Assembly (NCBI GenBank): GCA_027059605.1 | Contig: JALSZC010000212.1 | Span: 1-33,993, forward strand | DNA length: 33,993 nucleotides | Direction: 5' to 3' | DNA from: Ghiorsea sp. | GTDB lineage: Bacteria > Pseudomonadota > Zetaproteobacteria > Mariprofundales > Mariprofundaceae | Shown here: piece after piece, positions 5,501 to 33,993 of the stretch | Layout: every line of letters starts with the position of its first letter | How positions within the stretch are numbered: the first letter of the stretch is position 1 | Notes under the pieces: model-generated | What the model was told of the DNA's origin: nothing | Seen by the model: only the letters and a program-made list of their open reading frames with translations | Database searches by the model: none | Position numbers and translations under genes: made by a program

Positions 5501-5673
5501 CAACCCAAGACATCATTGTGTCATCTTCAGGTGCAAACCCTGTGCCTTCAGGGCAAGATAGTGGCGGCAGCAGTGGTGGTGGATGTATGTCAGGAACAGG
5601 CTTCCCCAATGCTGCCATATTAATACTCTTGTTACTTTATATTCAGCGGAGTTTTATACCCAAAAGTCTTTAA
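2581..5673 (+). CDS. Secreted double beta-propeller / Ig-like surface protein (1030 aa)
   Basis: The start is fixed by a strong GGGAGGGGG and a Sec signal peptide (MKKLLLSLLLIFLPINAYA, cleaved about residue 19). Residues about 30-560 contain some 13-14 repeats of 38-40 aa with the pattern L-N-x-I-V-W-N-G-x-x-F-V-A-V-G, then a TSPDGITW-type loop, resembling BNR/YCF48-type blades. That is enough for two seven-bladed propellers. The next ~430 residues are Ig-like or HYR-type modules (for example DTTPPVITLNGAADVYVEAG, DSSGNSSTATQDI), the kind seen in bacterial adhesins and stalks. The C-terminus has a Gly/Ser-rich stretch, GGGCMSG, a hydrophobic helix (AAILILLLLYI) and a basic tail. This is a CTERM-like sorting signal with a cysteine, suggesting cleavage and surface anchoring. 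It is probably controlled by the divergent XRE protein. Function is likely adhesion or surface display; ligand unknown. Confidence 0.85.
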   Translation: MKKLLLSLLLIFLPINAYALNTQWLNPTPQNSDLYNIIYAANKYIAVGARGAIVSSVDGYSWTKENSGTSNYINDIVWNGSQFLAVGGSLYQDEILTSPDGITWSQQSTGSSAFFNAVVWDGNQFVIVANSGRALTSSDGITWTSHITGNGFSLNDVCWNGSILVAVGTSGKVATSLDGVTWSLQTSGASNNSLNHIIWTGTQFIALGSGGIMITSPDGLTWTLRNTGTANPLNQLVWTGSLYVATSNASTVYTSLDAITWQQQTTTDTGWTSGIVWSGTQFVAVGETGAILTSPDAINWVNQSLVTRANINAVASSGQVYVAVGDAGEVLRSTDGITWSVQTSGVTVNLLDVMWDGLKFIAVGNATIITSADGITWTAQAVPAAQALNTITWSGTKYIAAGVNSSLVESLDGLTWTAVTGVGNTYSSAWGNGLFVRVGLSGGIFTSPDGITWTGNQSPGGLTALIDIVWNGSQFVAVGASGLIISSTNGIAWTRQTSGTLVSLSSVTWDGAQFIAVGGTELLTSADGVNWASQVSGSTQSLLNVMSTGSTTIASGQLGTILQFSFLPNLQEITPVPVLANNTTPAYTFSSDEAGTISYGGACSSATTVAVAGNNTITLNALPDGVYSNCTVSVTNGIGKVSAPLTLSTFTIDTIAPNAPSLTQPLNNTVTNNNAQPLITGSSDNNVTISIMDGNTNIASVSGGATWVLNAGVGTFTEGLHVITASAVDGAGNTSLSSSPVNYTVDLTSPTITVPSNITVEATSGSGVSSTQPSIASFLSAASATDNIAVSPTISHNAPALFPLGDTSVTFTATDDALNSRFSTAIVSVVDTTPPVITLNGAADVYVEAGSSYVEAGASATDIVDGTVTVQTTGSLNTNTVGIYNLTYSASDSHANTASSVVRRVHVIDTTPPVFLNLPLADIYSSQTSMSLAIPSVSDVSPVTVSNNAPSVYPVGVTTVTWTATDSSGNSSTATQDIIVSSSGANPVPSGQDSGGSSGGGCMSGTGFPNAAILILLLLYIQRSFIPKSL

Positions 5674-9719: not shown

Positions 9720-11942
9720 TTAAACCTTGAAAAACCGTAAGCGGTTGGCGTTAGAGACCACAGTTACAGATGACATCGCCATAGCTGCACCTGCAAGCAT
9801 GGGGTTGAGTAAAATACCCATAGGCATAAACAAAATACCTGCGGCAACAGGGATGGCTAAGGTATTGTAAATAAATGCACCGAGTAGGTTTTGTTTGATG
9901 TTGGTCAAGGTGGAAGATGAAATGCGAATGGCATCGGGTATGGCTGTTAAGCTAGAGCGCATCAACACCACATCCGCACTTTCAATGGCAATATCTGAAC
10001 CATGGGCAATGGCAAAGCCAACATTAGCGCGGGCTAATGCTGCGGCATCATTAATGCCATCACCCACCATGGCTACGACTTCCCCTTTTTCTTGAAGTTT
10101 TGCGATGACATTGTCTTTATCATCGGGTTTGACTTCGGCAGTGACATCATCAATGCCCACTTCTTTTGCAACTGCCAAGGCGGTTTGCTCATGGTCACCC
10201 GTAAGCATTTGTACTTTTAAGCCTAAAGTATGCAAAGCGGCAATGGCTGCTTTGGCATCAGGTTTGATGGGGTCAGCAATGGCAATAATGGCGATGATTT
10301 GATGATTTTTGGCTAGAAAAACGGGAGTTTTGGCTTGTTTTGCTAAGTTTTTACTAATTTTTTGCCAGTTTTTATCCGATTTTACATTGTTTTCGTGTAA
10401 AAAAGTATCGTTGCCAATCAAAATGTTCGCACCATCCACGCTTGCCGATACGCCGCCACCAAAGCTGGCTGCAAAGTTTTCAGCGTCAGTAATAGTTAAA
10501 CCTTTGTTTTCAGCCGCTTGAACAATGGCTTTGCCCAATGGGTGTTCTGAACCTTTTTCTACGGCTGCGGCAAATATCAAAGCATCATCTTCACTGATTG
10601 ATTCTGTGATAATATCAGTGACTTGGGGTTTGCCTTGGGTAATTGTGCCCGTTTTATCTAATACTACTGTGGTTAAGTGGGACGCACGTTCTAGTGCTTC
10701 ACCTTTGCGAATAAGAATGCCGTATTCGGCAGCCTTACCAATGCCAACAATCATAGAAATGGGGGTTGCCAAACCTAGGGCACATGGGCAGGCAATGAGT
10801 AAAATACTCATGCTGGTTACCAATGCTAAGGTCATATTATCCATATATAGCCACCAAAACAGACCTGTAGATAAAGCGATAAATAAAACGATAGGCACAA
10901 AAACGGATGCAACCTTATCAACCAAGCGTGCAATGTCAGGCTTAGCACTTTGGGCACGACGCACGGTTTCAATGATTTGGGCAAGCGTGGTTTCAGCACC
11001 AATACGTGTAGCTGTGTATAAAAAAGTGCCACTGTCGTTCATAGTGCCTGCAATCACTTCATCACCTTGGGCTTTGGATACAGGCATAGGCTCGCCTGTG
11101 AGCATAGATTCATCGATAAAAGATGCACCTTCAATGATATTGCCATCCACGGGGATTTTCTCGCCAGGGCGTACGCGCACCACATCACCAATAGCTACTT
11201 CTTCAATAGGAATGTAAACTTCTTTACCACCTCGTATAACACATGCAGTTTTTGCTTGTAAAGATAACAGCTTTTCAATGGCCTGATTGGTTTTTCCTCG
11301 GGCACGAGCTTCTAACACATGCCCAATATTCACCAAGGCAATCACAATCAGTGCGGCTTCAAAATAGACATGACGGCTGGCTTCAGGGATAAGGCTTGGA
11401 AATGCAACAACAGCCATGGAATATAACCATGCAACCCCTGTGCCCATGGCAACCAGCGTATCCATGCTGGTATTTTTATGCTTTAAACCATTCCATGTGC
11501 CTTTAAAATAATGCGAGCCTGAATATGCCATCACACCAAGTGTTGCTACAGTAATGAATAACCAAAAACCTTGCGCATCAAGGCTGGGCAATAATCCCAA
11601 CATGTTTGCTGCCATCAGTGGGAAACCAGTGAGTATGGCTAGGGCACTTTGTTTGATGCGATATTGAAGGTGTGCCGCTTCGGCTTCATGTTTTTTGGAT
11701 TCATCATCAGTGGATACCAACACTTTGGCGTGATATGAGCCTGCTGATTCAATGGCATCAATAATGTTGGCTTCGATTGTTCCCGAAGCGTCAGGGCGAG
11801 CTTCAACGCGCGCAGTTCTATCGACCAAATTGATACTTGCCGACACAATACCATCCACAGCATCAAGTTTGTTCTCGATTTTCCCTACACATGATGCGCA
11901 GCCCATGCCTTCAATTGATAAGCGTATTTCTTGGTTTTTCAT
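9720..11942 (-). CDS. copA: Copper(I)-exporting P-type ATPase
   Basis: This inner-membrane pump drives Cu(I) out of the cytoplasm using ATP. One N-terminal heavy-metal-binding domain carries GMGCASC (residues 12-18). The P1B-type core follows: TGEP (282-285, actuator), CPC in [10 protein letters not shown] (385-387, transport site in TM6), DKTGT (429-433, phosphorylated Asp), SEHP (465-468), and GDGIND in the P-domain. YN in TM7 and MAMSS in the last helix are the remaining Cu(I)-site signatures of the P1B-1 subgroup. At 740 aa it has a single HMA domain where some relatives have two. It ends 32 bp from the groES -35 box, is transcribed away from the haemoglobin gene, and has no copper-regulator gene beside it. 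Confidence 0.96.
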
Positions 11943-12043
11943 GCTATTTGTCTGACCTCATTCCATAGAACTGGATAAAATGTACTCGTAGCCTATGCGC
12001 TTGTCATGTATTGTGCGCCTTATTCCATATTGAAGGTAGGGTT

Positions 12044-12463
12044 ATGAATAGTTACGGATTTGAAGATACAACATACAAAGCAGTAGGCGGTCATGATGGT
12101 TTAGTGAAGCTGGTGGATGACTTTTATGAGGCTATGGACACTTTGCCTGAAGCCAAGCACATCCGTGATATGCACCCTGATGATTTGGAAGTGACAAAAG
12201 ATAAGCTAGTTTACTTTTTATCGGGCTGGATGGGTGGCCCGCGCATTTATGGTGAAAAGTATGGTGGTGTTAGTATTCCTATGGCGCACCAACACCTTAA
12301 AATCACAGCCGAAGATGCAAAAGCATGGCTGACTTGTATGAAAGCCGCATTGGATAAGCATGATTTTCCTGATGACTTCAAAGCATATTTGTTGGAACAA
12401 TTAGCATTTCCTGCCAATAGGATTCATCAAGTGAGTCAAATGAAGCACGGGCATACAAGCTAA
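12044..12463 (+). CDS. Group II truncated haemoglobin
   Basis: This 139-aa protein (start ATG 12044, behind GAAGGTAGGG, rather than TTG 12011 in the track) is a 2-on-2 globin. Features visible are FY at 27-28 (Tyr B10), FLSGWMGGPRIYGEKYGG (the GWxGGP stretch typical of group II), the proximal-His region MAHQHLKI (His84), and Trp95 in AWLTCM (position G8). Proteins of this group bind O2 or NO and are linked to protection from nitric oxide or oxidative stress. The role here is inferred. A 16-bp gap and a shared direction link it to the following lipoprotein gene. Confidence 0.92.
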   Translation: MNSYGFEDTTYKAVGGHDGLVKLVDDFYEAMDTLPEAKHIRDMHPDDLEVTKDKLVYFLSGWMGGPRIYGEKYGGVSIPMAHQHLKITAEDAKAWLTCMKAALDKHDFPDDFKAYLLEQLAFPANRIHQVSQMKHGHTS

Positions 12464-12479
12464 AAAAGAGGAGAAAACT

Positions 12480-12695
12480 ATGAAATGGACCATTTGTATA
12501 ATAGCTACGAGCCTATTGCTCACAGGTTGCGCAAGCTATAAGAGAACGCTCACCAACAGCAAGGGTGAAACGATTACCTGTGAAGCTAGTGGTAAGAATG
12601 GTATTATTACAGGGATATATTTACGCAAGGGTTTTAATAATTGTATTAACGAAGCTAAATCAGAAGGGTTTAAAGAAGTAAAAACACCTAAATAA
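12480..12695 (+). CDS. Small lipoprotein
   Basis: This 71-aa protein has a type II signal peptide with lipobox LLTGC (cleavage before Cys17), so it is lipid-anchored, probably in the outer membrane. The mature part is small and basic, with CEASGKNG, ITGIYLRKGFNNCINEAK and GFKEVK. Two further cysteines might form a disulphide. A GAGGAG ribosome binding site precedes ATG 12480. It appears to be the second gene after the truncated haemoglobin. I do not recognise a named family, and the function is unknown. Confidence 0.85.
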   Translation: MKWTICIIATSLLLTGCASYKRTLTNSKGETITCEASGKNGIITGIYLRKGFNNCINEAKSEGFKEVKTPK

Positions 12696-13011
12696 TTAAA
12701 GCTTTTTAACAATTTTCTTGTATCAATTTCTTGGGTTCTCGCTATATTGCAGCGCATTAGTCTGTTGTGCGCATGTGAAATAGCGATATAAATTTTTAAT
12801 CCTGGTCTTCACGTCAACACACGATTTATCACGCGAAAGCGGATGAAAATGTGGCGTACACGTGGAGATATAAGCAATCTTTTTGCAAGTATCCCTTTGA
12901 AAACAATATAAATGGTGATGTTGGTTGATTTCAACCAGCGGTTTGCCGTATGTTTTTTTGAAAGACAAATATAAATGTAAAAAGACGTAAGCGTCAGGAA
13001 ACACAAGAAAA
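12696..13011 (+). promoter_or_regulatory. Long structured leader of the DEAD-box helicase gene
   Basis: This 316-bp gap holds no convincing gene; the minus-strand ORFs in the track here lack ribosome binding sites and domain features. A promoter-like TTGTAT (12718-12723) and TATATT (12743-12748) are spaced 19 bp. Hairpins are TCGCTAT/ATAGCGA (12739-12745 with 12780-12786) enclosing GCGCA/TGCGC, TGGTTG/CAACCA (12923-12938) and GACG/CGTC just before the AGGAA near the start codon. Long, structured 5' untranslated regions are known for cold-induced csdA/deaD genes. That this one works the same way is inference. Confidence 0.5.
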
Positions 13012-14823
13012 ATGTCAGAAAATATAGAAAATACACTCGAAAAAGCTTCGGAAATAACCTTTAAAGATTTGGATTTAAGCCCAGAGGTTCTTAAAGGCTT
13101 GGATGATGTGGGTTATGAAAAACCATCACCCATTCAAGCAGAAATTATTCCACATGTTGTAGAAGGTAGAGATGTGTTGGGTCAGGCGCAAACGGGTACG
13201 GGTAAAACCGCTGCATTTGCACTCCCAGTATTGTCCAAAATTGATTTGAGCCAAAAGAACCCTCAAGTGTTGGTGCTTGCGCCAACCCGTGAGCTTGCAA
13301 TTCAAGTGGCAGAAGCATTTCAAAAATATGCTAAACATATGAAAGGTTTTCATGTGTTGCCCATTTATGGTGGCGCAAGTTATGATGGGCAATTGAAACA
13401 ATTAAGGCGCGGTGTGCATGTTGTGGTGGGCACACCAGGGCGTGTGATGGATCATATGCGCCGCAAAACCTTGAAGCTGGATAACCTTAAAACATTGATT
13501 TTGGATGAAGCAGATGAAATGTTGCGCATGGGTTTTATTGATGATGTAGAATGGGTGCTTGAGCAAACGCCACCAACCCGTCAAATTGCTTTATTTTCAG
13601 CAACTATGCCGTCACAAATTCGTAAAATCACCAACAATTACCTGAACAAACCTGTTCATATCACAATTAAAACCAAAACATCGACTGCGATGACTATTCG
13701 CCAGCGTTATTGGATGGTTAGTGGCCGCCATAAAGTGGATGCATTGACCCGCATTTTAGAAGCGGAAACTTTTGATGGTGTGATTATTTTCGTGCGTACC
13801 AAAACAGCAACGGTTGAACTTGCAGAAAAATTGCAGGCGCGCGGTTATGCTGCTGCGGCCTTAAATGGTGATATTGCACAAAATCAACGTGAACAAATCG
13901 TCAACAAACTGAAAAAAGGTCAAATTGATATTTTGATTGGTACTGATGTTGTGGCGCGTGGGCTTGATGTTGAGCGTATCTCACATGTGATAAACTATGA
14001 TGTGCCACATGATACGGAATCTTATGTGCATCGCATTGGTCGCACTGGCCGTGCAGGACGTTCTGGCGAAGCTATTTTGTTTGTCGCACCACGTGAGAAA
14101 CGTATGTTGTATGCGATTGAACGTGCAACCAACCAACGTGTTGAATTGTATGTGATGCCTTCTACAGAAGATATTAACAACAAACGCATTGAGGACTTTA
14201 AACAGAAAATCACGGCTACGTTGGAAGAGGGCGGTTTGGAGCTGTTTTCCAAAATTATCGAAGAATATGAAGAAGAACATAATGTACCAGCCCAAGAAAT
14301 TGCAGCGGCATTGGCGAAGATGGTACAAGGTTCAGAGCCCTTCTTACTGAAAGATATGCCCAAAGTTCGGGGTGGGCGTGATGAGCCTAGAGATTTGCGT
14401 AGTCATGGTGGCAACCGCGAGTATCATGAAAAGCCGTTAGCAAAAGGTTTTAGTCGTTATCGTTTGGCTGTTGGTTCTGATTTGGGTGTGCGCTCTGGAA
14501 ATATTGTGGGTGCGATTGCCAATGAAGCGGGTATTGATAGCGAGTTTATCAATAACATTGTGATTCGTGATGACCATTCCATGGTTGATTTGCCCGAAGG
14601 TATGCCAGATTCAATTTTTAAAACATTGAAAAAAACACGTATTGCAGGCAAAGCCATCAATTTGGAGCAAGTTGAAGTGGAATTTGGTGGTGATGAACCG
14701 CGTAAACGCCGTGGTAACTTCCGAGGTGGTCGTGGTGGCAGCGGACGTGGTCGTGCGGGTAATAACCGTGGCAGCCGTAGTGGTGGTGGACGTGGTCGCG
14801 GTGCACCAAGACGCGGACGTTAA
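13012..14823 (+). CDS. deaD: DEAD-box RNA helicase, DeaD/CsdA type
   Basis: This ATP-dependent RNA helicase remodels ribosomal and messenger RNA, typically in ribosome assembly and at low temperature. Visible motifs in order: Q-motif FKDLDLSPEVLKGL; Walker A AQTGTGKT (59-66); PTRELAIQV; TPGR; DEAD (165-168); SATMP; ARGLDV; HRIGRTGRAGR. Residues about 481-555 (YRLAVGSDLGVRSG, GEAGIDSEF-like) form the DbpA-type RNA-binding domain, followed by an RGG-rich tail (RGNFRGGRGG and GGRGRGAPRRGR). At 603 aa it is close to E. coli DeaD. A long structured leader precedes it and a strong terminator follows. Confidence 0.96.
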   Translation: MSENIENTLEKASEITFKDLDLSPEVLKGLDDVGYEKPSPIQAEIIPHVVEGRDVLGQAQTGTGKTAAFALPVLSKIDLSQKNPQVLVLAPTRELAIQVAEAFQKYAKHMKGFHVLPIYGGASYDGQLKQLRRGVHVVVGTPGRVMDHMRRKTLKLDNLKTLILDEADEMLRMGFIDDVEWVLEQTPPTRQIALFSATMPSQIRKITNNYLNKPVHITIKTKTSTAMTIRQRYWMVSGRHKVDALTRILEAETFDGVIIFVRTKTATVELAEKLQARGYAAAALNGDIAQNQREQIVNKLKKGQIDILIGTDVVARGLDVERISHVINYDVPHDTESYVHRIGRTGRAGRSGEAILFVAPREKRMLYAIERATNQRVELYVMPSTEDINNKRIEDFKQKITATLEEGGLELFSKIIEEYEEEHNVPAQEIAAALAKMVQGSEPFLLKDMPKVRGGRDEPRDLRSHGGNREYHEKPLAKGFSRYRLAVGSDLGVRSGNIVGAIANEAGIDSEFINNIVIRDDHSMVDLPEGMPDSIFKTLKKTRIAGKAINLEQVEVEFGGDEPRKRRGNFRGGRGGSGRGRAGNNRGSRSGGGRGRGAPRRGR

Positions 14824-14857
14824 GCTCAGCTACGTTAAAACCTGCTGAATAAATCTA

Positions 14858-14894
14858 AGCCTCGATAACAAGTAATTGTTGTCGGGGCTTTTTT
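14858..14894 (+). terminator. Terminator of deaD
   Basis: AGCCTCGATAACAA and TTGTTGTCGGGGCT form a 14-bp stem with two G-U pairs around GTAA, followed by TTTTTT. Confidence 0.93.
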
Positions 14895-14924
14895 ATGCCT
14901 ATAGTTCAGCATACGAGGTGAGCC

Positions 14925-15959
14925 ATGAAATATAACCAGCTTGGAAGCAGTGATTTAAACGTATCTGAAATATGTTTGGGTACCATGACCTTTGGTGAAC
15001 AAAATACTGAAGAAGAAGCGCATGCCCAACTAGATATGGCTGCAGATTATGGGGTAAACTTTATTGATACGGCTGAAATGTATCCTGTTGCACCACGCGC
15101 TGAAACGCAAGGGCGAACTGAATCGTATGTGGGTTCATGGCTGAAAAACCAGCAACGAGATAAGTGGATTGTTGCCACTAAAATCACAGGCCCATCACGC
15201 GGCTTTGAATGGATTCGTGGCGGCCCACGCATCACTAAAGCGCACATTGAAACTGCGATTGAAGATAGTTTGGCGCGTTTGCAAACAGATTATGTTGACC
15301 TCTATCAAATCCATTGGCCAGACCGCTATGTGCCTATGTTTGGCAGCACCAGTTATGATATTCATCAAGCGCATGAAGCCATAGCCATCGAAGAACAACT
15401 TCAGGCATTAGCTGGTTTGGTGGATACCGGTAAAGTACGGTATATTGGTTTGAGTAATGAAACACCTTGGGGTGTGAGTGAATTTAGCCGTTGTGCTAAA
15501 GTATTGGGTTTACCGCATATTGTGAGTATTCAAAATGCATATCATTTGATGAACCGCACTTTTGAGGCTGGGCTTGCCGAAGTTTGCGCACATGAAAAGG
15601 TGGGATTATTGGCTTATAGCCCGCTTGCCTTTGGGCATTTGACGGGCAAATATGTGGATGATCCGCAAGCCAAAGGGCGGGTGACACAATTTCCGCAATT
15701 CACCCAAAGATACAGCAAAACCAATGTGGCAGAAGCCGTGCAGGCGTACACCCAAATCGCGAGAGATGCAGGGCTTAGCCCTGCGCAAATGGCTTTAGCA
15801 TTTGTGCGCAGCCGTTGGTTTACAGCGAGCACCATCATTGGTGCAACCACGTTAGAGCAGCTTAAAGAAAACCTTGAAAGCACGGATGTTGTGTTAACTG
15901 AAGAAGTCTTAGCGCAAATTGAGCAGGTGCATCAGAAGTATCCTAACCCTGCACCATAA
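14925..15959 (+). CDS. tas: NADP(H)-dependent aldo-keto reductase, Tas-like
   Basis: This 344-aa cytoplasmic oxidoreductase has the aldo-keto reductase TIM barrel. The N-terminus MKYNQLGSSDLNVSEICLGT is typical. The catalytic tetrad is visible as DTAEMY (Asp and Tyr), ATKITG (Lys) and YQIHWPD (His). IGLSNETPWGVSEF and IGATTLEQLKENL mark cofactor- and C-terminal-barrel elements. The long insertion after HWPDRYVPMFG matches E. coli Tas, which can support reductase activity in a tyrosine-auxotroph context. The physiological substrate is unknown. A GAGGTG precedes the start. It stands alone between two terminator-like elements. Confidence 0.92.
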   Translation: MKYNQLGSSDLNVSEICLGTMTFGEQNTEEEAHAQLDMAADYGVNFIDTAEMYPVAPRAETQGRTESYVGSWLKNQQRDKWIVATKITGPSRGFEWIRGGPRITKAHIETAIEDSLARLQTDYVDLYQIHWPDRYVPMFGSTSYDIHQAHEAIAIEEQLQALAGLVDTGKVRYIGLSNETPWGVSEFSRCAKVLGLPHIVSIQNAYHLMNRTFEAGLAEVCAHEKVGLLAYSPLAFGHLTGKYVDDPQAKGRVTQFPQFTQRYSKTNVAEAVQAYTQIARDAGLSPAQMALAFVRSRWFTASTIIGATTLEQLKENLESTDVVLTEEVLAQIEQVHQKYPNPAP

Positions 15960-16054
15960 AGACAATTTGAATATGCTGCTTCATCCTTTCTTTTGCTAAC
16001 CACCTTAGCACAGCTATAGCAAAGGGAAGGTGTTGTCACAGCCTACACACCGTC

Positions 16055-16123
16055 ATTTCCGCGCCTCTCCAAGGTGTACTCTCTGCCTTTGGTGTTCACT
16101 TTAAGGCGGGAAATCTTTTTTTT
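16055..16123 (+). terminator. Long-range inverted repeat with T-run after tas
   Basis: ATTTCCGCGCC (16055-16065) pairs, with one bulged base, with GGCGGGAAAT (16105-16114), followed by CTTTTTTTT. It resembles the intergenic palindromic elements with CGTCATTCCCGCG-type arms found in many proteobacterial genomes. It could terminate tas transcription. Confidence 0.5.
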
Positions 16124-16127
16124 CTTC

Positions 16128-16195
16128 GTGCGCTTCGTGTTCTTTGTGGTTCGTTTGTAATTCCTCTGTATTCTCTGCGCTCTCTGTGGTTAGAT
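16128..16195. repeat. Intergenic CTCTGTGGTT-type repeat, copy 1
   Basis: TTCGTGTTCTTTGTGGTTCG is followed by CTCTGTATTCTCTGCG and CTCTCTGTGGTT. This tandem-like imperfect motif recurs in reverse complement at 29753-29781. There is no gene in the 15960-16202 gap. Confidence 0.6.
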
Positions 16196-16202
16196 TGTTT
16201 CG

Positions 16203-16868
16203 TCACTTACCGTTGATATATTCCTCATCATTAAAGGTGACCAGCCAGTTGGGATAATAGCAGATAAAGCCCGAAACAATCCATGTGCTAATCACAGCTT
16301 CCATACCACCCATCAATGCTAAAACCAGAGTGAAATCTTGGTAAATATGGAATGATGGATAGTCTGTCCAGAGCAGTAAGCAGCCCGTGAGCACGGCATC
16401 CACTGCCCACATACACAACAAATCACCAAACCCAACCTTGGCAAAATAAACGGGAACTATGCGAGGAAATTTGTAGTAAAAGAAAAGGTGTACACTTGCA
16501 GCTATGACAACGGGCAACAATACGGATGTGGTGATATTAAAGCCAAGTGTTGAAACATCACCTATGCCCTTGGTAACCAGTAAAAACACATGTACTGCCG
16601 ATAAAATGACAATGGCTGTCCAAGGGCCAACCATCATCACCGTCAGCATTACACCCAACCAATGCATATTCATACCGGGTTTGATATCCGATTGCAGCAT
16701 ATACAAGGCAGATAGTGCTACGAAAATAAAGGCAACCTGCAAACCTTCAGACCAACCTGACCAAAAGCGCGTTTCCGTACGCCAGATGGCAAACAGTATC
16801 ACGGGCACTGCAATGATGTTGCATATCATGATAATATAATCGGGATAAAGACCTGCGGGGATATGCAT
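16203..16868 (-). CDS. CbiM-like ECF transporter permease (orphan)
   Basis: This 221-aa integral membrane protein has about six hydrophobic segments. Its start, MHIPAGLYP, matches the family in which Met1-His2 bind the metal (CbiM/NikM, cobalt or nickel uptake). A second His sits in NMHWLGVMLTVMMVGPW (His69) and the STLGFNITTSVLLPV stretch is also CbiM-like. The usual partners (CbiN, CbiQ, CbiO ATPase) are absent from the window, so it could be an orphan component, a partner of a remote ATPase, or a family member with another role. It lies 15 bp downstream of yqeY on the same strand, probably one transcript. Confidence 0.78.
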   Translation of the reverse strand: MHIPAGLYPDYIIMICNIIAVPVILFAIWRTETRFWSGWSEGLQVAFIFVALSALYMLQSDIKPGMNMHWLGVMLTVMMVGPWTAIVILSAVHVFLLVTKGIGDVSTLGFNITTSVLLPVVIAASVHLFFYYKFPRIVPVYFAKVGFGDLLCMWAVDAVLTGCLLLWTDYPSFHIYQDFTLVLALMGGMEAVISTWIVSGFICYYPNWLVTFNDEEYINGK

Positions 16869-16883
16869 GATTACATCAGTTGG

Positions 16884-17324
16884 CTACTGAAGTGCAGCTT
16901 TCACTTCGGTAGAGACTTTGCTCATGTCAGCCTTGCCTTGCGCTTTGGGTCGGACAATGCCCATCACTTTACCCATGTCTTTCATTGAAGTGGCACCTAC
17001 TTCTGCAACGGCATCAGCAACCAGTTTTTTAATTTCAGTATCATTCATTTGTTCAGGCAAATAAACCTCTAACACTTTAATTTCAGCTTGTTCTTTTTCA
17101 GCCAGCTCAGGGCGACCTGCCTCAAGATATTGGTTTGCTGAGTCTTTACGTTGTTTGATGAGTTTGCCGATGACCGCAAGTGTTTCTGTGTTTTCTAAAG
17201 CTTTGCCCAATTCAATTTCTTTATCTTTAATGGCAGCTCTAAGCATGCGGATAACACTGAGTGCTACCTTATCTTTTGCTTTCATAGCAGCTTTCATATC
17301 ATCTGTAATTTGTTGAATCAGCAT
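16884..17324 (-). CDS. yqeY: GatB/YqeY domain protein
   Basis: This 146-aa cytoplasmic protein is the YqeY family, a helical domain also found at the end of the GatB amidotransferase subunit. The family motifs are visible: IRMLRAAIKDKEIE, KQRKDSANQYLEAGRPELAE, EVYLPEQMND and the C-terminal GATSMKDMGKVMG then GKADMSKVSTEV. A role with tRNA or amidotransferases has been suggested from the shared domain. An AAGGTG precedes ATG 17324. Confidence 0.95.
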   Translation of the reverse strand: MLIQQITDDMKAAMKAKDKVALSVIRMLRAAIKDKEIELGKALENTETLAVIGKLIKQRKDSANQYLEAGRPELAEKEQAEIKVLEVYLPEQMNDTEIKKLVADAVAEVGATSMKDMGKVMGIVRPKAQGKADMSKVSTEVKAALQ

Positions 17325-21053: not shown

Positions 21054-21538
21054 GCCAACCACTACGTGTTCTTTTTGTTTGTTTAGGCAATATTTGTCGC
21101 TCGCCATTGGCAGAAGTGGTGGTCAAATCGGTTGCTCAAGAGCAAGGCTTATTGGATCAGTTTCATTTTGAATCAGCAGGTACAGGTAGTTGGCATGTGG
21201 GCGGTGGTGCAGACCCGCGTTCAGCAAGCAAAGCCTTGGAAAAAGGTTTAAGTTTAGAAAGCCATCAGGCTCAGCAAATTACACGAAGAAACATTGGTGA
21301 TTGGGATATATTTGTGGCTATGGATAGCGATAATAGGCGCAATCTGATTGCGATGGGTGCCAAGCCTGAACAAGTGGTGATGATGCGAGCTTTTGAAGGG
21401 GCAGCACAAGCACCTGATGTGCCAGACCCTTATTATGGTGGTGCTTCAGGTTTTGAAGATGCATACCAAATGCTCAAATTGAACGCACAAGGTCTGCTTC
21501 AATACTTACAACAATGTAAACAACAACACTCATGTTAG
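21050..21538 (+). CDS. Low-molecular-weight protein tyrosine phosphatase
   Basis: This 162-aa cytoplasmic phosphatase has the C-x5-R active site CLGNICRS (Cys11 to Arg17) in VLFVCLGNICRSPLAE, and the general-acid loop VPDPYYGG near residue 126. It removes phosphate from tyrosine or arginine in proteins, depending on the subgroup. The partner kinase is not in the window. It overlaps tsaB by four bases and the next gene by seven. Confidence 0.95.
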   Translation: MSQPLRVLFVCLGNICRSPLAEVVVKSVAQEQGLLDQFHFESAGTGSWHVGGGADPRSASKALEKGLSLESHQAQQITRRNIGDWDIFVAMDSDNRRNLIAMGAKPEQVVMMRAFEGAAQAPDVPDPYYGGASGFEDAYQMLKLNAQGLLQYLQQCKQQHSC

Positions 21539-23328
21539 GTCAATTGCATACACGTTTGCGAAGAATACCTGATTGGCTACGTAGCCATGATACATTGTAT
21601 TTGGGGCTTTGGTCCTTGGTTGTTGGTGTTTTGGCTGGTTATGCTGCGTTGTTGATTCGTTTTGGTATTGAGTGGGTGAGCCGAATTTGGACGGGCGAAG
21701 CCTCATGGTCTGAAGGTTTACACGATATTCACTGGTCTATTTTTATTCTTGCTCCATCCATTGCTGGTTTAATAGTGGGCTGGATTAATAACCGTTGGTT
21801 ACCTGTGACCGAAGAGCGGGTTATTCCTGGTGTGATTGAAGCACTGGCAGAGCGTGGTGGTAAAATATCATTCCGTAAGAGTAGTGGTGAATTTGTTGCC
21901 AATATTGTGTCTGTGGGTAGTGGTGCATCTATGGGGCGTGAAGCACCAACGGTTGCACTTGGCGCAGCTTTATCCTCATTGCTTGGTCAATGGTTAAATT
22001 TATCGGAAAAACAAATCCGTACGCTTATTGGCTGTGGTGTAGCAGGTGGTATTGCAGCATCTTTTAATGCGCCGATTGCAGGAGTGTTGTTTGCCTTAGA
22101 GGTTATCCTGGCAGATTATGCGATTGCCACATTTACACCGATTGTGATGTCGGCAGTAATTGCCACAGTGATTACCCGCTCTGAATTGGGAAACTTCCCC
22201 ATGTTTACCATTCCAGAATTTAGACTTGTTTCATCTTGGGAAATTCCCGCTTATATTGGTTTGGGTATCTTTTGTGGTTTGTTGGCAACGCTGATTGTGA
22301 AGGGTGTACCTACGGCACGACATATGTATGAGCGTTACATTTCATTTCCAATTGTACGACCTGCTGTAGCAGGTTTGTTGTTGGGTTTATGCGCACTGGT
22401 GATTCCAGAAATTATGTCTATTGGTTATGGCACAGTGGATGGCATTCTCTTGGAAAATGTGGAAACCAATATGGTTGGTCAGCATTTACCCTTGATACTA
22501 TTTTTAAGTATTTTGCTGGTAATGAAGTTGATTGTTAGCATTATTTGTTCTGGTGGTAAATTTGGTGGTGGTATGATTGGTCCATCGGTGTTTATTGGGG
22601 CAACAGCAGGTGCACTTTTTGGTGGGCTTGTACATGGTATGTTCCCCACATGGACAGAATCGTATGGCGCATACGCACTGGTGGCTTGTGGCGCAATGGT
22701 GGCGGCGACGATTCAAGCACCCATGAGCTCTATTTTGATGATTTTTGAGTTGTCCAATGATTATCATATTATGGTACCATTGATGACAGCATGTGTTGTT
22801 GCTGCATTGACCAAACGTGCTTTTGGTAGTGATTCTATTTTAACGGAAGTGTTGTCGGAAAAAGGTGTGAATACCGAGTGGTCACTTGAGCGATCATGGA
22901 TGCGTGCAGTTCCTGTATCTCGATTACCATGGCGTTCTGTGCCATCAGTGCATGTATCGGATAAACTGGAAGTGTTGAAAAAAGTCTATATTTCATCGGG
23001 TAAAGGTTGCGTGATTGTGACCAATGATGAAGGAGAAATGGTGGGCATGGTCACCTTCTTTGATTTACAAAAATGGCTGCTTGATTCCTCACTTGACCAA
23101 GTAGTGGTGGCAGAAGAGGTCGCCAATAAGAATGTGATTAGTCTATCAGAAAATGATAGTTTATTGGATGCTATTGATATTTTAGATCGCGCTACCTTTG
23201 AACAAATGCCCGTGACTGATGCCGATAATCCGAAAAGAGTTTTGGGTATTGTATCTCGCAATGCCGTGTTCTCTACGTATCATAAATTGATTGTAAAACA
23301 TGGTGAAGATCATGCTGCTAAGAGTTAG
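21532..23328 (+). CDS. CLC-type chloride channel/transporter with CBS domains
   Basis: This 598-aa membrane protein is a ClC family member (about residues 20-440) with a C-terminal CBS pair (about 470-590) that could sense nucleotides. The gating glutamate is present in GREAPTV (Glu137), as is the GGKFGGGMIGPSVFIGA loop. Unusual features: the position of the E. coli proton glutamate E203 is Val191 (FALEV), the GSGIP loop is replaced by ERVIPGV so that Ser107 is lost, and the central Tyr (SIYT-type) is Leu in SILTEVL. This fits a channel rather than a Cl-/H+ exchanger, which is inference. The start overlaps the phosphatase stop by seven bases. Confidence 0.9.
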   Translation: MLGQLHTRLRRIPDWLRSHDTLYLGLWSLVVGVLAGYAALLIRFGIEWVSRIWTGEASWSEGLHDIHWSIFILAPSIAGLIVGWINNRWLPVTEERVIPGVIEALAERGGKISFRKSSGEFVANIVSVGSGASMGREAPTVALGAALSSLLGQWLNLSEKQIRTLIGCGVAGGIAASFNAPIAGVLFALEVILADYAIATFTPIVMSAVIATVITRSELGNFPMFTIPEFRLVSSWEIPAYIGLGIFCGLLATLIVKGVPTARHMYERYISFPIVRPAVAGLLLGLCALVIPEIMSIGYGTVDGILLENVETNMVGQHLPLILFLSILLVMKLIVSIICSGGKFGGGMIGPSVFIGATAGALFGGLVHGMFPTWTESYGAYALVACGAMVAATIQAPMSSILMIFELSNDYHIMVPLMTACVVAALTKRAFGSDSILTEVLSEKGVNTEWSLERSWMRAVPVSRLPWRSVPSVHVSDKLEVLKKVYISSGKGCVIVTNDEGEMVGMVTFFDLQKWLLDSSLDQVVVAEEVANKNVISLSENDSLLDAIDILDRATFEQMPVTDADNPKRVLGIVSRNAVFSTYHKLIVKHGEDHAAKS

Positions 23329-26142: not shown

Positions 26143-28143
26143 ATGACTCATCAACCGCTAGATTCTTCATCTTCCTTTCCCGCCTTAGGCGGTCAAAGTT
26201 CAGCACCAGACCCATGCGTGTTTGTCATTTTTGGTGCCTCGGGTGATTTAACCAAACGCTTATTAATTCCGTCCCTGTTTAATTTATATATGGATGGCTT
26301 GTTGCCTGATAACTTTGCGGTTTTAGGTTTATCGAGAGACTATTTTAGCGCGGAGTCCTTTCGTAAGAAAATGAGCGAAGATATTCGTGAACATTCACGA
26401 AGAGAATCTTTTGATGATAAGCGTTGGCAAACATTTTGCGATAATATTCATTACCTGCAAGGTAAGTTTGATGACCCTGAAACATTTAAAAATCTCGACC
26501 AATTCCTTAACGCATTTAATGGTCGCCACAATACCCAAGAAAATGTGTTGTTTTATATGGCGACACCACCATCCATTGCAGCCATGGTTTCTGAGGGGCT
26601 GGATGCCGTCAAACTGAACCAAGAAACTAAAGGCTGGCGCAGAATGATTGTTGAGAAACCATTCGGAACAGACCTTGCTTCTGCAAAAAAGCTAAACAAA
26701 ATCTTATTATCCTATTGGAAAGAAAGCCAAATCTACCGTATTGACCATTACCTTGGCAAAGAAGCTGTACAGAATCTGGTCGCATTTCGTTTTGCCAATG
26801 GCATGTTTGAGCCTTTATGGAACCACACCCATATTGATCACATCCAAATCACTGCCAATGAGCAAGTTGGTGTGGAATGGCGTGGTGGTTATTATGATAA
26901 AGCGGGTGTTGTCCGCGATATGATTCAAAACCATTTGTTTCAAATGATGGCATATTTGTGCATGGAGCCGCCCACATCCTTTGATGCTGAAGCCATTCGC
27001 AATGAAAAACATAAACTTTTGAATACAGTACGTATTTTAAAACATGAAGAAGTGCAAACTCATGCGGTGCGCGGTCAATACGATGCAGGGTTTAACCCTG
27101 ATGGCAGCCCTGCCAAGGCATACCGTGATGAACCGCATATTGCTCCTGATTCCAACACAGAAACCTTTGCTGCTATTAAATTGCGCATTGACAACTGGCG
27201 TTGGGATGGTGTGCCTGTGTACTTACGTTCAGGTAAAGGCATGAGCCGAAAATCCACGGAAATCGTGGTGCAATTTAAGCAAGCACCCGACTTCACATTT
27301 AGAGGTACCCCTGCTGCTGAACAACTTGAAGCCAACCAACTTATTTTCCGTATTCAGCCCAAAGAAGGTATTGAACTACACTTTCTCGCCAAGCGTCCTG
27401 GGCCATCCATGAACTTGCGTAATGTGAATATGCGCTTTGAATATGATGAAGCCTTTGTCACCCAACCAGGCACAGGTTATGAAACCATGCTTTATGATTG
27501 TATGCGTGGTGATGCATCTTTATTTTCTCGCTCTGACTTGGTGGAAACATCATGGAAAATTGTGCAGCCTATTTTGGATGTTTGGGGAAGAGAAAAAGAT
27601 GACACATTGCCCAACTATCCCTTTGGTTCTTGGGGGCCAAAAGCATCATTTAGCTTATTATCACCACGCGATAAACGTCGCTGGCCAACCCGCTCATCTA
27701 AGCTTGCTTTAAGAAAAATACCTATGTTTGAAGGTAGTGATGAAGCCATGCTAAGTGCATTTTCATCTATGCTTAAATCGGTTGTTTTTGATGCTGGTGA
27801 CCAAATTGTAAATGCTGAAAGCGAAGCGCACGAACTGTTTATTATTCGTATTGGCACAGTAGAAATTCGCAATGAAAAAAATAAAGTTTTAAAAACACTG
27901 CAGCAAGATGATATTTTTGGTGAGCTAAGCTTATTAAGTAGTGCAGAGCAACTCACCGCCAATGCGTATGCCAAAACCTATTGTGCGTTATACACCATGA
28001 GTAAACGTGATTTCTGTCGTGTGTTAACAGATAACCCATTATTTGCAGCATCCATGAAAAAAATCGCCAAAGAACGCTACGATATTCTTATTGATGCCCA
28101 AGATTGGGTGGATTCTGCCGCAGTAAACACAGAAGGAGCTTAA
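26143..28143 (+). CDS. zwf: Glucose-6-phosphate dehydrogenase with C-terminal cyclic-nucleotide-binding-like domain
   Basis: The first ~500 residues are a full glucose-6-phosphate dehydrogenase, the NADP+-dependent entry step of the oxidative pentose-phosphate path. Visible: GASGDLTKR (31-39, coenzyme), EKPFG, RIDHYLGKE (199-207, substrate site) and AVRDMIQNH-like VVRDMIQNHLFQ. After a linker ending SPRDKRRWPTRSSK, residues about 526-650 form a Crp-like cyclic-nucleotide-binding domain (VVFDAGDQIVNAESEAHELF, DDIFGELSLLSS). The family phosphate-binding cassette normally has Arg before the Thr/Ser-Ala; here it reads QLTANAY, with Leu604 at the Arg position. Usual Zwf is ~490 aa, so this 666-aa form is a fusion. 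No internal stop or frameshift is seen. The ribosome binding site is weak. The gene is first in zwf-gnd-pgl. Confidence 0.95.
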   Translation: MTHQPLDSSSSFPALGGQSSAPDPCVFVIFGASGDLTKRLLIPSLFNLYMDGLLPDNFAVLGLSRDYFSAESFRKKMSEDIREHSRRESFDDKRWQTFCDNIHYLQGKFDDPETFKNLDQFLNAFNGRHNTQENVLFYMATPPSIAAMVSEGLDAVKLNQETKGWRRMIVEKPFGTDLASAKKLNKILLSYWKESQIYRIDHYLGKEAVQNLVAFRFANGMFEPLWNHTHIDHIQITANEQVGVEWRGGYYDKAGVVRDMIQNHLFQMMAYLCMEPPTSFDAEAIRNEKHKLLNTVRILKHEEVQTHAVRGQYDAGFNPDGSPAKAYRDEPHIAPDSNTETFAAIKLRIDNWRWDGVPVYLRSGKGMSRKSTEIVVQFKQAPDFTFRGTPAAEQLEANQLIFRIQPKEGIELHFLAKRPGPSMNLRNVNMRFEYDEAFVTQPGTGYETMLYDCMRGDASLFSRSDLVETSWKIVQPILDVWGREKDDTLPNYPFGSWGPKASFSLLSPRDKRRWPTRSSKLALRKIPMFEGSDEAMLSAFSSMLKSVVFDAGDQIVNAESEAHELFIIRIGTVEIRNEKNKVLKTLQQDDIFGELSLLSSAEQLTANAYAKTYCALYTMSKRDFCRVLTDNPLFAASMKKIAKERYDILIDAQDWVDSAAVNTEGA

Positions 28144-28145
28144 CA

Positions 28146-29063
28146 ATGAAATTAGCAATGATTGGACTTGGTCGCATGGGCGGCAATATGGTCAAGCGTT
28201 TGATGCAAGGCGACCATGACGTGGTGGCGTATGATGTAGATGCTGCGCCTGGCAAAGCTTTAGCCGAAGAGTTTGACCGTGTACAAGCTGCATCTGATTT
28301 AAAAGACGTGATTGCCAAGCTGCCAAGCCCTCGCGTGCTTTGGGTGATGGTACCGCATGAATATGTGGATGACACGATTAATAACTTGCTTGAAGCAGGT
28401 GTGCAAGCAGGTGATTTGATTATTGATGGTGGTAATTCCAACTACAAAGAAGGGCAGCGCCGTGGTGCTGAATTGGCTGAAAAAGGCATTTTATTTGCCG
28501 ATTGTGGCACATCAGGTGGCGTTTGGGGTTTACAAAATGGTTATTCATTGATGATTGGTGGCGAAAAAGATGCCATTGATTTGATTGCGCCAGCTTTAAC
28601 CACGCTAGCTTCTGATGATGGTAAAGGTTGGGGGCATATGGGGCCAATCGGTTCTGGTCACTTCGTCAAAATGGTTCATAACGGCATTGAATACGGCATG
28701 ATGCAAGCCTTTGCAGAAGGTTATGACATCATGAAAGCCAAAAAAGAATTTGATTTGGATATGCATCAAATTTCTCGTGTTTGGCAACATGGTTCCGTGG
28801 TCAGTTCATGGCTATTGGATTTAACAGGTGATGCACTTGAGCAAGATGTAGAGCTATCTTCATTGTCCGATTGGATGGATGATTCAGGCGAAGGTCGCTG
28901 GACAGTGAATGAATCTATTGATTTGGGTGTTCCTGCGCCAGTGCTTACTTTGGCATTGCAAATGCGCTTTAGAAGCCGACAAAAAGATGCGTATGCAGGT
29001 AAAATCGTCAATGCTCAACGCGCTGGTTTTGGTGGGCATAAAATCAAACCTGCTAAGAAATAA
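28146..29063 (+). CDS. gnd: 6-phosphogluconate dehydrogenase, short decarboxylating type
   Basis: This enzyme makes ribulose-5-P, CO2 and NADPH (or NADH) from 6-phosphogluconate. The track start (28104) is too early: ATG 28146 (MKLAMIGLGRMGGNM) follows AAGGAG. GLGRMGGNM is the nucleotide-binding motif; HFVKMVHNGIEYGMMQ holds the catalytic Lys and Asn; the end AGFGGH is typical. The 305-aa length fits the short form rather than the ~470-aa E. coli form. It lies two bases after the zwf stop, so the two are translationally linked. Confidence 0.96.
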   Translation: MKLAMIGLGRMGGNMVKRLMQGDHDVVAYDVDAAPGKALAEEFDRVQAASDLKDVIAKLPSPRVLWVMVPHEYVDDTINNLLEAGVQAGDLIIDGGNSNYKEGQRRGAELAEKGILFADCGTSGGVWGLQNGYSLMIGGEKDAIDLIAPALTTLASDDGKGWGHMGPIGSGHFVKMVHNGIEYGMMQAFAEGYDIMKAKKEFDLDMHQISRVWQHGSVVSSWLLDLTGDALEQDVELSSLSDWMDDSGEGRWTVNESIDLGVPAPVLTLALQMRFRSRQKDAYAGKIVNAQRAGFGGHKIKPAKK

Positions 29064-29072
29064 GTACCCCCC

Positions 29073-29753
29073 ATGTCTTTCGAGCCAAACCAACTGCAAC
29101 GCTTTGAAAATGGTGAACAAGCCGCGCAATTTGTTGCTGATGAAATCGTTACAGCTTGCGGACAAGCTATTGCAGAACGCGATGTGTTTCATTGGGTATT
29201 AGCAGGAGGCAGCACGCCAGAATTATGCTATCGCTTATTAAGAAATGCAGATATGGATTGGTCTAAAGTGCATGTGTGGTTTGGTGATGAGCGTGCCTTA
29301 CCTAAAGGTGACACCGATAGAAATGAAACCATGGCACGAAATGCTTTATTCGACTTTGTAGCTATCCCTGAGACCAACATTCATAGCATTGATTTTAGCA
29401 ACGGCACACAAGCCGCCGCATTATCTTATGCTCAAGAGATTGAAGGCATTGATAGCTTTGATGTGGTGATGTTGGGCATGGGCGAAGATGGGCATACAGC
29501 AAGCTTATTTCCCAATCATGATACGCTGCAAAGCAATGAATTAGCTGTGGCAGAATTTGATTCGCCCAAACCACCATCTGAGCGGGTAAGTATGGGTTTT
29601 AAAGCCTTAAATAATCATAGGCAATGTTTTATTTTAGCCACAGGTGCATCCAAAAAAGATATTTTACAAGACATCGCTAATGGTGCGGATTTACCAGTCA
29701 CCCATATTGAAAATGCAATATGGGTCGTGGATAACGCTGCTTGGCATATTTGA
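29073..29753 (+). CDS. pgl: 6-phosphogluconolactonase (DevB type)
   Basis: This 226-aa hydrolase opens 6-phosphogluconolactone between the Zwf and Gnd steps. Family motifs: LAGGSTPELCYRLL, VWFGDERALP, and LGMGEDGHTASLFP (active-site region). It starts nine bases after gnd. The gene order zwf-gnd-pgl gives a complete oxidative pentose-phosphate operon. A 10-bp hairpin (ACCCATATTG with CAATATGGGT) lies in its last codons. Confidence 0.96.
   Translation: MSFEPNQLQRFENGEQAAQFVADEIVTACGQAIAERDVFHWVLAGGSTPELCYRLLRNADMDWSKVHVWFGDERALPKGDTDRNETMARNALFDFVAIPETNIHSIDFSNGTQAAALSYAQEIEGIDSFDVVMLGMGEDGHTASLFPNHDTLQSNELAVAEFDSPKPPSERVSMGFKALNNHRQCFILATGASKKDILQDIANGADLPVTHIENAIWVVDNAAWHI
29700..29725. repeat. 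Perfect 10-bp hairpin in the last codons of pgl
   Basis: ACCCATATTG and CAATATGGGT are exact inverted arms around AAAATG, 26 bases upstream of the pgl stop codon's last base. A T-run (29782-29787) comes later. It may assist 3'-end formation or protect the mRNA end. Confidence 0.45.
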
Positions 29754-29937: not shown

Positions 29938-32120
29938 CTAACGTTTTAATTTGAAAATAACACAAGCTAGCGGTGGCAAGGTAACCTCAATCGAATGTGC
30001 TTGCTCCATCCATGGTTGTGCATCTGATTGAACACCACCTACATTACCAAGGTTTGAACCACCATAAGTATTAGCATCTGTATTCATGATTTCTTGATAA
30101 TATCCTGCTTTGGGCACACCCAACCTATAGTTTTCACGAGGTACGGGGGTTAAGTTCATCACCACAATTACTTCACCGCCATTTTTATCACGGCGAATAA
30201 AGCTAAGTACGGATTGTGCAGCATCATTGCAATCTATCCATTGAAAACCTGCGCCATCAAAATCCACTTCATGCAAAGCAGGTTCATCTTTATATACATG
30301 ATTCATATCGCGCATCATCAGTTGCAAACCACGGTGTGGCATAAAGTTGGACTGTTCCCAAGCCAATGAACTATCAAAATCCCATTCTGGCCATTGCCCG
30401 AACTCTAAACCCATAAATTGCAATTTTTTACCAGGGTGGGCATACATATAAGCATACAATAGACGTTGGTTAGCAAACTTCTGCCAATCATCGCCCGGCA
30501 TTTTTTCAGGCATAGAGCCTTTGCCATGCACCACTTCATCATGGGAGAAGGGTAGAATAAAGTTTTCTGTAAACGCATAAACAGCAGAAAAGGTGAGTGC
30601 ATGATGATGGTAAGAGCGATTGATGGGGTCTTCTTTAAAATAAGACAGGGTGTCATTCATCCAACCCATATTCCATTTCATGGTAAAACCTAAACCACCC
30701 AAATAGGTGGGGCGCGATACCATAGGGAATGATGTGGATTCTTCTGCCATAGTCACCGCACCGGGGAAACGCTCATGTACAAGGCAGTTAAATTGTTTTA
30801 AAAACTCAATGGCTTCAAGGTTTTCTCGTCCGCCATGTTTATTGGGTAGCCACTCGCCTTCTTCACGCGAATAATCCAAGTATAACATGGATGCCACAGC
30901 ATCTACTCTTAAGCCATCTATGTGGTATTCATCCAACCAGAATAATGCGGATGCAATCAAGAAATTGCGTACTTCATTGCGCCCAAAGTTGAAGATATAT
31001 GTGCCCCAATCTTTATGCTCGCCAAGGCGAGGGTCTTCATGTTCATACAATGGTGTGCCATCAAATCGCGCCAAACCATGTGCATCTTTGGGAAAGTGGG
31101 CAGGCACCCAATCCAAAAACACGCCCAACCCATGCTGATGACAATAATCGACAAAATAACGAAATTCATCAGGTGAACCAAAACGGCTGGTGGGCGCAAA
31201 ATAACCCACAGTTTGATAGCCCCAAGAGCCATCATACGGGTATTCTGTTATCGGCATAAGTTCGATATGTGTGTAACCCATCCAATTGCAATATTCGACC
31301 ACTTGATGCGCCAAATCTTTGTAGCTCAAATATGTACCATTTTCTCTGCGCCATGAACCAAGATGCAACTCATAAATACTCATGGGTTTATCCAAAGCTT
31401 GAGTTTCAGGGCGTTTTTTTATCCAATCGGTATCTAGCCAAGTATAATGCTTTGGGTTATGCACTACCGATGCCGTGGCAGGGCGCAGCTCCATTTGCTG
31501 GGCATAAGGGTCAGTTTTTTGGAATACATCACCATTGCTGGCACGAATTTCAAACTTGTATGTTTCACCTTCACATAGCTCAGGAATAAAAATTTCCCAA
31601 ATACCCGATGAACCGCGTACTCGCATTTGATGTTCTCTGCCATCCCAATGGTTAAAGTTACCCACCACACTGATGCGCTCAGCAGCAGGTGCCCACACTG
31701 CAAAACCAACACCATGCACACCTTCATGTTCGCGAACATGTGCACCTAGAATACGGTATTTCTCAAAATGATTGCCTTCACCAATCAAATGCAAATCCAT
31801 ATCACCCAACATGGGTGCAAAGCGGTACACATCTTCTTGCTGCCAAGTGTGACCTTCATGATTTTCAATGCGAAGGGTGTAATCCTTATCAAAGCTTCCT
31901 TTTTTCCAATGTTTTTCAAATACATCGGTGCCTTCAATGCGTGTCATCATTTGAGCACGACCACCCTTGGGCACAAGCCACATTTTTTCAGCTTGGGGTT
32001 TTAAAGCACGAATAATAATGCCGCCATCAGGGTGTTCATGTCTGCCCAACCAAGCAAAAGGATCATGGCTTCGTGCTTCAACAACTGCCCATGCTTCAGG
32101 GGATAAAATAGGCGCAGACA

Positions 32121-32121
<1 letters not shown>
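29938..32121 (-). CDS. glgB: 1,4-alpha-glucan branching enzyme GlgB
   Basis: GlgB makes the alpha-1,6 branches of glycogen. The N-terminal part ([15 protein letters not shown] and the following CBM48-like domain, to about residue 240) precedes a GH13 barrel. HLGSWRRE and [17 protein letters not shown] are typical; the nucleophile is in [16 protein letters not shown], the acid in MAEESTSFP, and the transition-state residues in [15 protein letters not shown]. At 727 aa it equals the E. coli length. Its start overlaps the pgm stop by one base (TGATG), so the two are translationally coupled. Confidence 0.97.

Positions 32122-33993
<1,872 letters not shown>

Follow-up and report, generated by a model that had tools for sequence, protein, structure and literature searches.

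Glucose-6-phosphate dehydrogenase (G6PDH, Zwf) is the enzyme at which carbon is committed to the oxidative pentose-phosphate pathway. In a stretch of 33,993 nucleotides from a Ghiorsea genome (the whole stretch is referred to here as the window), a gene that we call zwfF joins this enzyme to a cyclic nucleotide (cNMP)-binding-like domain, and the locus raises the question of whether a second messenger could control entry into the pathway directly. The original prediction had proposed that a complete Zwf and the additional domain lie in one uninterrupted frame, and this was confirmed: frame +1 is open from an ATG to a TAA over 666 amino acids, and Pfam recovers all the expected domains (Table 1). 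Both G6PD_N and G6PD_C are complete and exceed their curated cut-offs, the NCBIfam equivalog TIGR00871 (zwf) matches the protein with 609 bits, and the cNMP_binding match (residues 548–629, 7.9e-14) scores 51.8 bits, nearly twice its cut-off of 27.5. The motifs GASGDLTKR (residues 31–39, the GxxGDL cofactor motif), EKPFG (171) and RIDHYLGKE (199) are present, and from these sequence features we infer a working G6PDH with predicted catalytic activity.

Table 1. Features of the zwfF locus, with positions in the window and the evidence for each.
Feature	Positions	Strand	Evidence
zwfF, glucose-6-phosphate dehydrogenase with C-terminal cNMP-binding domain, 666 aa	26143..28143	+	open frame, Pfam/NCBIfam, conserved fusion
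G6PD_N (NAD(P)-binding) domain, residues 28–211	26224..26775	+	Pfam 3.3e-65
Arg65 codon, E. coli R50 equivalent, cofactor-discriminating position	26335..26337	+	alignment; rule from PMC8546961
RIDHYLGK substrate/catalytic motif, residues 199–206	26737..26760	+	motif; nearly invariant across aligned ZwfF and ZwfU
G6PD_C domain, residues 214–514	26782..27684	+	Pfam 1.1e-117
Short linker, residues 515–522 (~8), adjoining invariant R512/W514	27685..27708	+	alignments
cNMP-binding-like beta-roll and flanking helices, residues 523–650	27709..28092	+	Pfam 7.9e-14; structure models; Foldseek
Degenerate phosphate-binding cassette FGELSLLSSAEQLTANAYA, residues 592–610	27916..27972	+	FGE retained; Leu604 in place of Arg
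gnd, short NAD-type 6-phosphogluconate dehydrogenase	28146..29063	+	TIGR00872, 377 bits versus cut-off 297; Pfam
pgl, 6-phosphogluconolactonase	29073..29753	+	TIGR01198, Pfam
glgB, glycogen branching enzyme, convergent neighbour	29938..32121	-	NF003811
pgm, phosphoglucomutase, convergent neighbour	32121..33932	-	NF005737

The source genome is fragmented (362 contigs, 89% complete, 7.8% contamination), which would suit an explanation by assembly or frame artefact, or by a chance fusion in a single genome. The probability of this is negligible: there is no frame error around position 27700, where the original prediction had placed the point to check, and the same single frame recurs in 27 further loci and in full-length hits from 40 genomes, some of them isolates, which refutes the artefact. 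The 27 loci, together with one contig-edge fragment, came from a scan of genome contigs and belong without exception to Zetaproteobacteria; two of the sources are isolates, Mariprofundus ferrooxydans PV-1 and M. erugo P3. The scan used exact short peptide patterns, so that distant fusions outside Mariprofundales could escape it. A profile spanning the last ~70 G6PDH residues and the cNMP domain, run on a sample of 399 genomes from one phylum, matched end to end in Mariprofundales only (40 genomes). Outside this order the same sample yielded no fusion, the G6PDH tail and the cNMP domain matching different proteins, and no plasmid record covered 80% of the combined query. The fused protein, ZwfF, is present in 41 of 78 Mariprofundales genomes (40 full-length; one, G003, cut by a contig end) and an unfused G6PDH, ZwfU, in 37; 17 genomes have both forms, 24 ZwfF only, 20 ZwfU only and 17 neither, many of these last being incomplete. 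The G6PDH-cNMP fusion is a real, conserved architecture, confined to Mariprofundales within the genomes searched, and the suspicion that it is unusual for a Zwf was well founded. Judged by titles and abstracts, searches of the open-access literature, including those on Zwf or the pentose-phosphate pathway in Mariprofundus and Zetaproteobacteria, yielded no paper that seems to describe it, which is weak evidence of absence; the architecture is apparently undescribed so far, a variant of known families.

By sequence profile and by fold, the C-terminal domain belongs to the cyclic nucleotide-binding superfamily. Structure prediction places a beta-roll at about residues 545–620, followed by helices at 621–646, with a pLDDT of about 70–89 over most of the roll in the domain-only model, and the best PDB fold matches of this model (Foldseek) are the cNMP domains of HCN2, SpIH and SthK (E about 1e-11). 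The domain had been described as Crp-like, a label that does not survive these comparisons. PDB sequence matches of the window domain alone are PKA-R, HCN2 and SthK/LliK (1e-17 to 1e-13), and those of the ZwfF family profile are PKG, PKA-R, LliK, SthK and HCN/HCN2, whereas the NCBIfam CRP model reaches only 1.6e-6. Elsewhere in the phylum, the highest-scoring cNMP-only proteins resemble channels, and Pfam identifies four of the six inspected as Ion_trans plus cNMP_binding. Pfam finds no helix-turn-helix, a Crp/Fnr trait, after the cNMP domain, and the protein ends ~16 residues past it. As judged by sequence and fold, the ZwfF domain is nearer to the cNMP domains of HCN/CNG/SthK channels and PKA-R/PKG than to Crp.

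Across ZwfF the length of the linker is fixed within one or two residues, and R512 and W514 are invariant. This near-constancy argues for mechanical coupling of the two parts rather than a loose tether. In the full-length model the N-terminal and cNMP parts are good and the G6PD_C half is poor (mean pLDDT 59.5, pTM 0.42), so that domain packing is not readable from it.

In the window protein the phosphate-binding cassette retains FGELSLL at residues 592–598, while the position of the nucleotide-contacting Arg is taken by Leu604 (codon CTC, 27952–27954) within QLTANAY, exactly as the original prediction had read it; the combination of FGE and Arg that marks a canonical cAMP/cGMP cassette is absent here and present in 21 of the 28 ZwfF sequences, including that of M. 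ferrooxydans PV-1. In these 21 the cassette is FGELSLLxTKxRxA(T/S)VRAxTYC, identical or close to the canonical form (FGE(L/V)S(L/M)L....R.A(T/S/N)V), and lines up at each position with the cNMP domains of six-TM channels. All seven sequences of one Ghiorsea clade (support 100/100), the window's among them, have Leu at the Arg604 position; L038, the sister of this clade, retains Arg604, and FGE is retained in all 28. Most simply, these sequences point to a single loss of Arg604 within Ghiorsea. The clade has a cassette pattern of its own, Q-L-x-[AT]-N-x-[YF]-A as against R-x-A-[ST]-V-R-A elsewhere. A one-residue insertion in the cassette loop, Ala601 (27943–27945), is seen only in the window and its 98% identical sister L034. 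The dN/dS of the domain is 0.06–0.12, similar to that of the catalytic part, and 0.076 in the Leu clade, a rough figure as dS is near saturation; the domain of the Ghiorsea Leu clade is still under purifying selection. The doubt originally raised about a canonical ligand is therefore upheld by Leu604 for the window protein and not for the family, where, with 21 of 28 members keeping Arg, the ligand is most likely a canonical cyclic nucleotide.

Class III cyclase domains were found in 40 of the 41 Mariprofundales genomes searched, with five such domains in the window's genome. Since these cyclases occur in lineages with Arg-type and with Leu-type ZwfF, a source of ligand exists in both. They are equally common in genomes without ZwfF and show no co-occurrence with it. 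Loss of the cyclases is ruled out as the cause of the loss of Arg604, as genomes of the genus Ghiorsea retain four to seven of them.

On balance, we favour an account in which ZwfF is gated by cAMP or cGMP through a channel/PKA-type domain, with sensing lost or altered in Ghiorsea. In Arg604-type ZwfF the C-terminal roll would most likely bind cAMP (or cGMP) made by class III cyclases, and the linker would carry the resulting domain movement to the G6PDH oligomer, altering its activity or oligomer state. The second messenger would in this way set the entry of hexose phosphate, for example from glycogen, into the oxidative pentose-phosphate pathway, with a direction and size of effect that are conjectural. 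In an autotroph using RuBisCO, such gating of G6PDH would prevent a futile cycle. RuBisCO is present in 60 of the 78 Mariprofundales genomes and glgB and pgm lie beside the window operon, which makes control of glycogen-derived glucose 6-phosphate against the Calvin cycle plausible. The window's own genome (89% complete) yielded no RuBisCO; the sister genome G004, whose ZwfF is 98% identical, has it.

The same cassette data bear on two other explanations. The domain could be purely structural and nucleotide-free in every member, stabilising or building the ZwfF oligomer or docking a partner such as Gnd or Pgl. The loss of Arg in Ghiorsea under continued constraint indicates that the domain can be retained without a canonical pocket, and ligand-free cNMP-homology domains exist, the EAG1 CNBHD being among the fold matches; we nevertheless regard this role as unlikely, because 21 of 28 ZwfF hold a full cassette, including Arg604 and Glu594, for which a scaffold has no need. 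Alternatively, the domain could sense some other small molecule (another nucleotide, or a redox or nitrogen signal), either in all ZwfF or following a switch of ligand in Ghiorsea. A cassette pattern shared within Ghiorsea and kept by purifying selection is more in keeping with a changed pocket than with decay, yet the ancestral cassette is canonical and positive evidence favours no particular ligand, and we hold this to be distinctly improbable. We retain gating by a cyclic nucleotide as the preferred reading for Arg604-type ZwfF. As the window protein is without the key Arg, cAMP control is not to be assumed for it; in the Ghiorsea Leu clade the canonical cAMP response has most likely gone, and the domain may have a structural role or one with an altered ligand. 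The regulatory reading, drawn as it is from sequence, appears well motivated for the ZwfF family and weak for the window's protein.

The start of gnd in the window lies 3 bases downstream of zwfF, and pgl follows gnd after ~10 bases. Three gene orders were found: gnd-zwfU-pgl; zwfF-gnd-pgl (the window and M. ferrooxydans); and zwfF-gnd-zwfU-pgl, a tandem at about 5700–11200 in L049, L050, L054 and L055 that unites two G6PDH lineages in one operon and is likely an intermediate of gene replacement. M. ferrooxydans PV-1 (G131) appears to have both forms on separate contigs (L115, 4114–5628, and L116, 5002–8703): zwfF-gnd-pgl on one, and on the other a solitary zwfU that adjoins haem-biosynthesis genes. 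One genus has zwfF without gnd and pgl (L113 of genome G030, 9833–16895; likewise G127 by coordinates); here a gene for the RuBisCO large subunit, flanked on each side by LysR regulators, lies ~3.5 kb away. Elsewhere in the window, a CLC-type chloride channel with CBS domains (21532–23328) is another transport protein with a domain of nucleotide-sensing type, and 2581–5673 encodes a probably surface-exposed protein of 1030 aa that contains HYR and bacterial Ig-like domains.

The ZwfU of Mariprofundales resembles ZwfF in its expected reaction and in sharing an operon with the same gnd and pgl, but is only ~42–48% identical, lacks the cNMP domain and always has Arg at the NADP position. In the tree, the 28 ZwfF form one clade (support 100/100) and the 17 ZwfU another (100/98 or better). 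The two are not sisters: in this unrooted tree with its long ZwfF branch, ZwfF stands beside a mixed G6PDH group sharing a KRLLxP-like motif. An origin of ZwfF by duplication of the local ZwfU is unsupported, given that the clades are not sisters and ZwfF groups with KRLLxP-type G6PDHs, with the root unset. The nearest solved structure to ZwfF is Synechocystis G6PDH (9EMM/9EMN; 482 bits for 9EMM, 343 for the next structure), and plasmid-borne Zwf of Nostocales is 52–53% identical; these similarities are suggestive of horizontal gain from cyanobacteria, but the tree sets the ZwfF branch outside the mixed group and we do not claim it. The C-terminal cNMP domain lies outside every matched Zwf structure and NCBIfam Zwf model.

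Arg at the position of E. coli R50 has been read as marking NADP use, and its absence as a loosened or NAD-type specificity (PMC8546961). The equivalent residue is Arg in all 17 ZwfU; in the 28 ZwfF, residue 65 is Met in 20, Ile in three (L035, L038, L058) and Arg in the five of the window's subclade, so that the window protein is of the NADP type by this rule. Most ZwfF are predicted to be NAD-type G6PDHs, the NADP-favouring Arg having been regained in the window's subclade. The simplest order of changes on the tree would have Met65 replaced by Ile first, Arg604 by Leu second and Ile65 by Arg last. A rule that the NADP-type Arg was regained because ZwfF is the sole G6PDH is unsupported, as other genera with ZwfF only retain Met65.

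Together, these features tentatively suggest a new mode of G6PDH control, a possibility that we advance with some doubt: in iron-oxidising autotrophs cAMP or cGMP would directly gate an NAD-type ZwfF, which in many genomes stands beside an NADP-type, unregulated ZwfU. Ghiorsea, in which no G6PDH other than ZwfF was found, would have lost the sensing and regained the use of NADP. If true, cyclic-nucleotide signalling in iron-oxidising bacteria would be tied to the Calvin cycle and to the use of glycogen. A ready comparison is offered by the natural Arg604 and Leu604 forms and by the ZwfF/ZwfU pair of M. ferrooxydans. Regulation of G6PDH by a redox partner (OpcA) is known; in the open-access literature searched there is no report of a second messenger that binds the enzyme directly.

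The domain of ZwfF is like those of CNG/HCN/SthK channels and PKA-R/PKG in sequence, in fold and, in most members, in its cassette; unlike in the channels, it sits on a soluble dehydrogenase without a transmembrane part, and in the window's clade the Arg is lost. The purpose proposed for ZwfF gating is analogous to that of OpcA, an allosteric switch of G6PDH that in cyanobacteria keeps glycogen catabolism apart from the Calvin cycle and regulates the Synechocystis enzyme as a separate protein (PMC13071761); OpcA senses redox state, and we claim no homology between it and the cNMP domain. A parallel in architecture is the mycobacterial acetyltransferase Pat (MtKat/MsKat), likewise an enzyme with a fused cNMP domain, through which it is directly activated by cAMP (PMC5861322), and the NCBIfam Pat model matches the M. 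ferrooxydans ZwfF domain at 1.1e-12. Pat differs in that it carries its domain N-terminally on a GNAT enzyme that catalyses another reaction in another pathway, whereas in ZwfF the domain follows the dehydrogenase.
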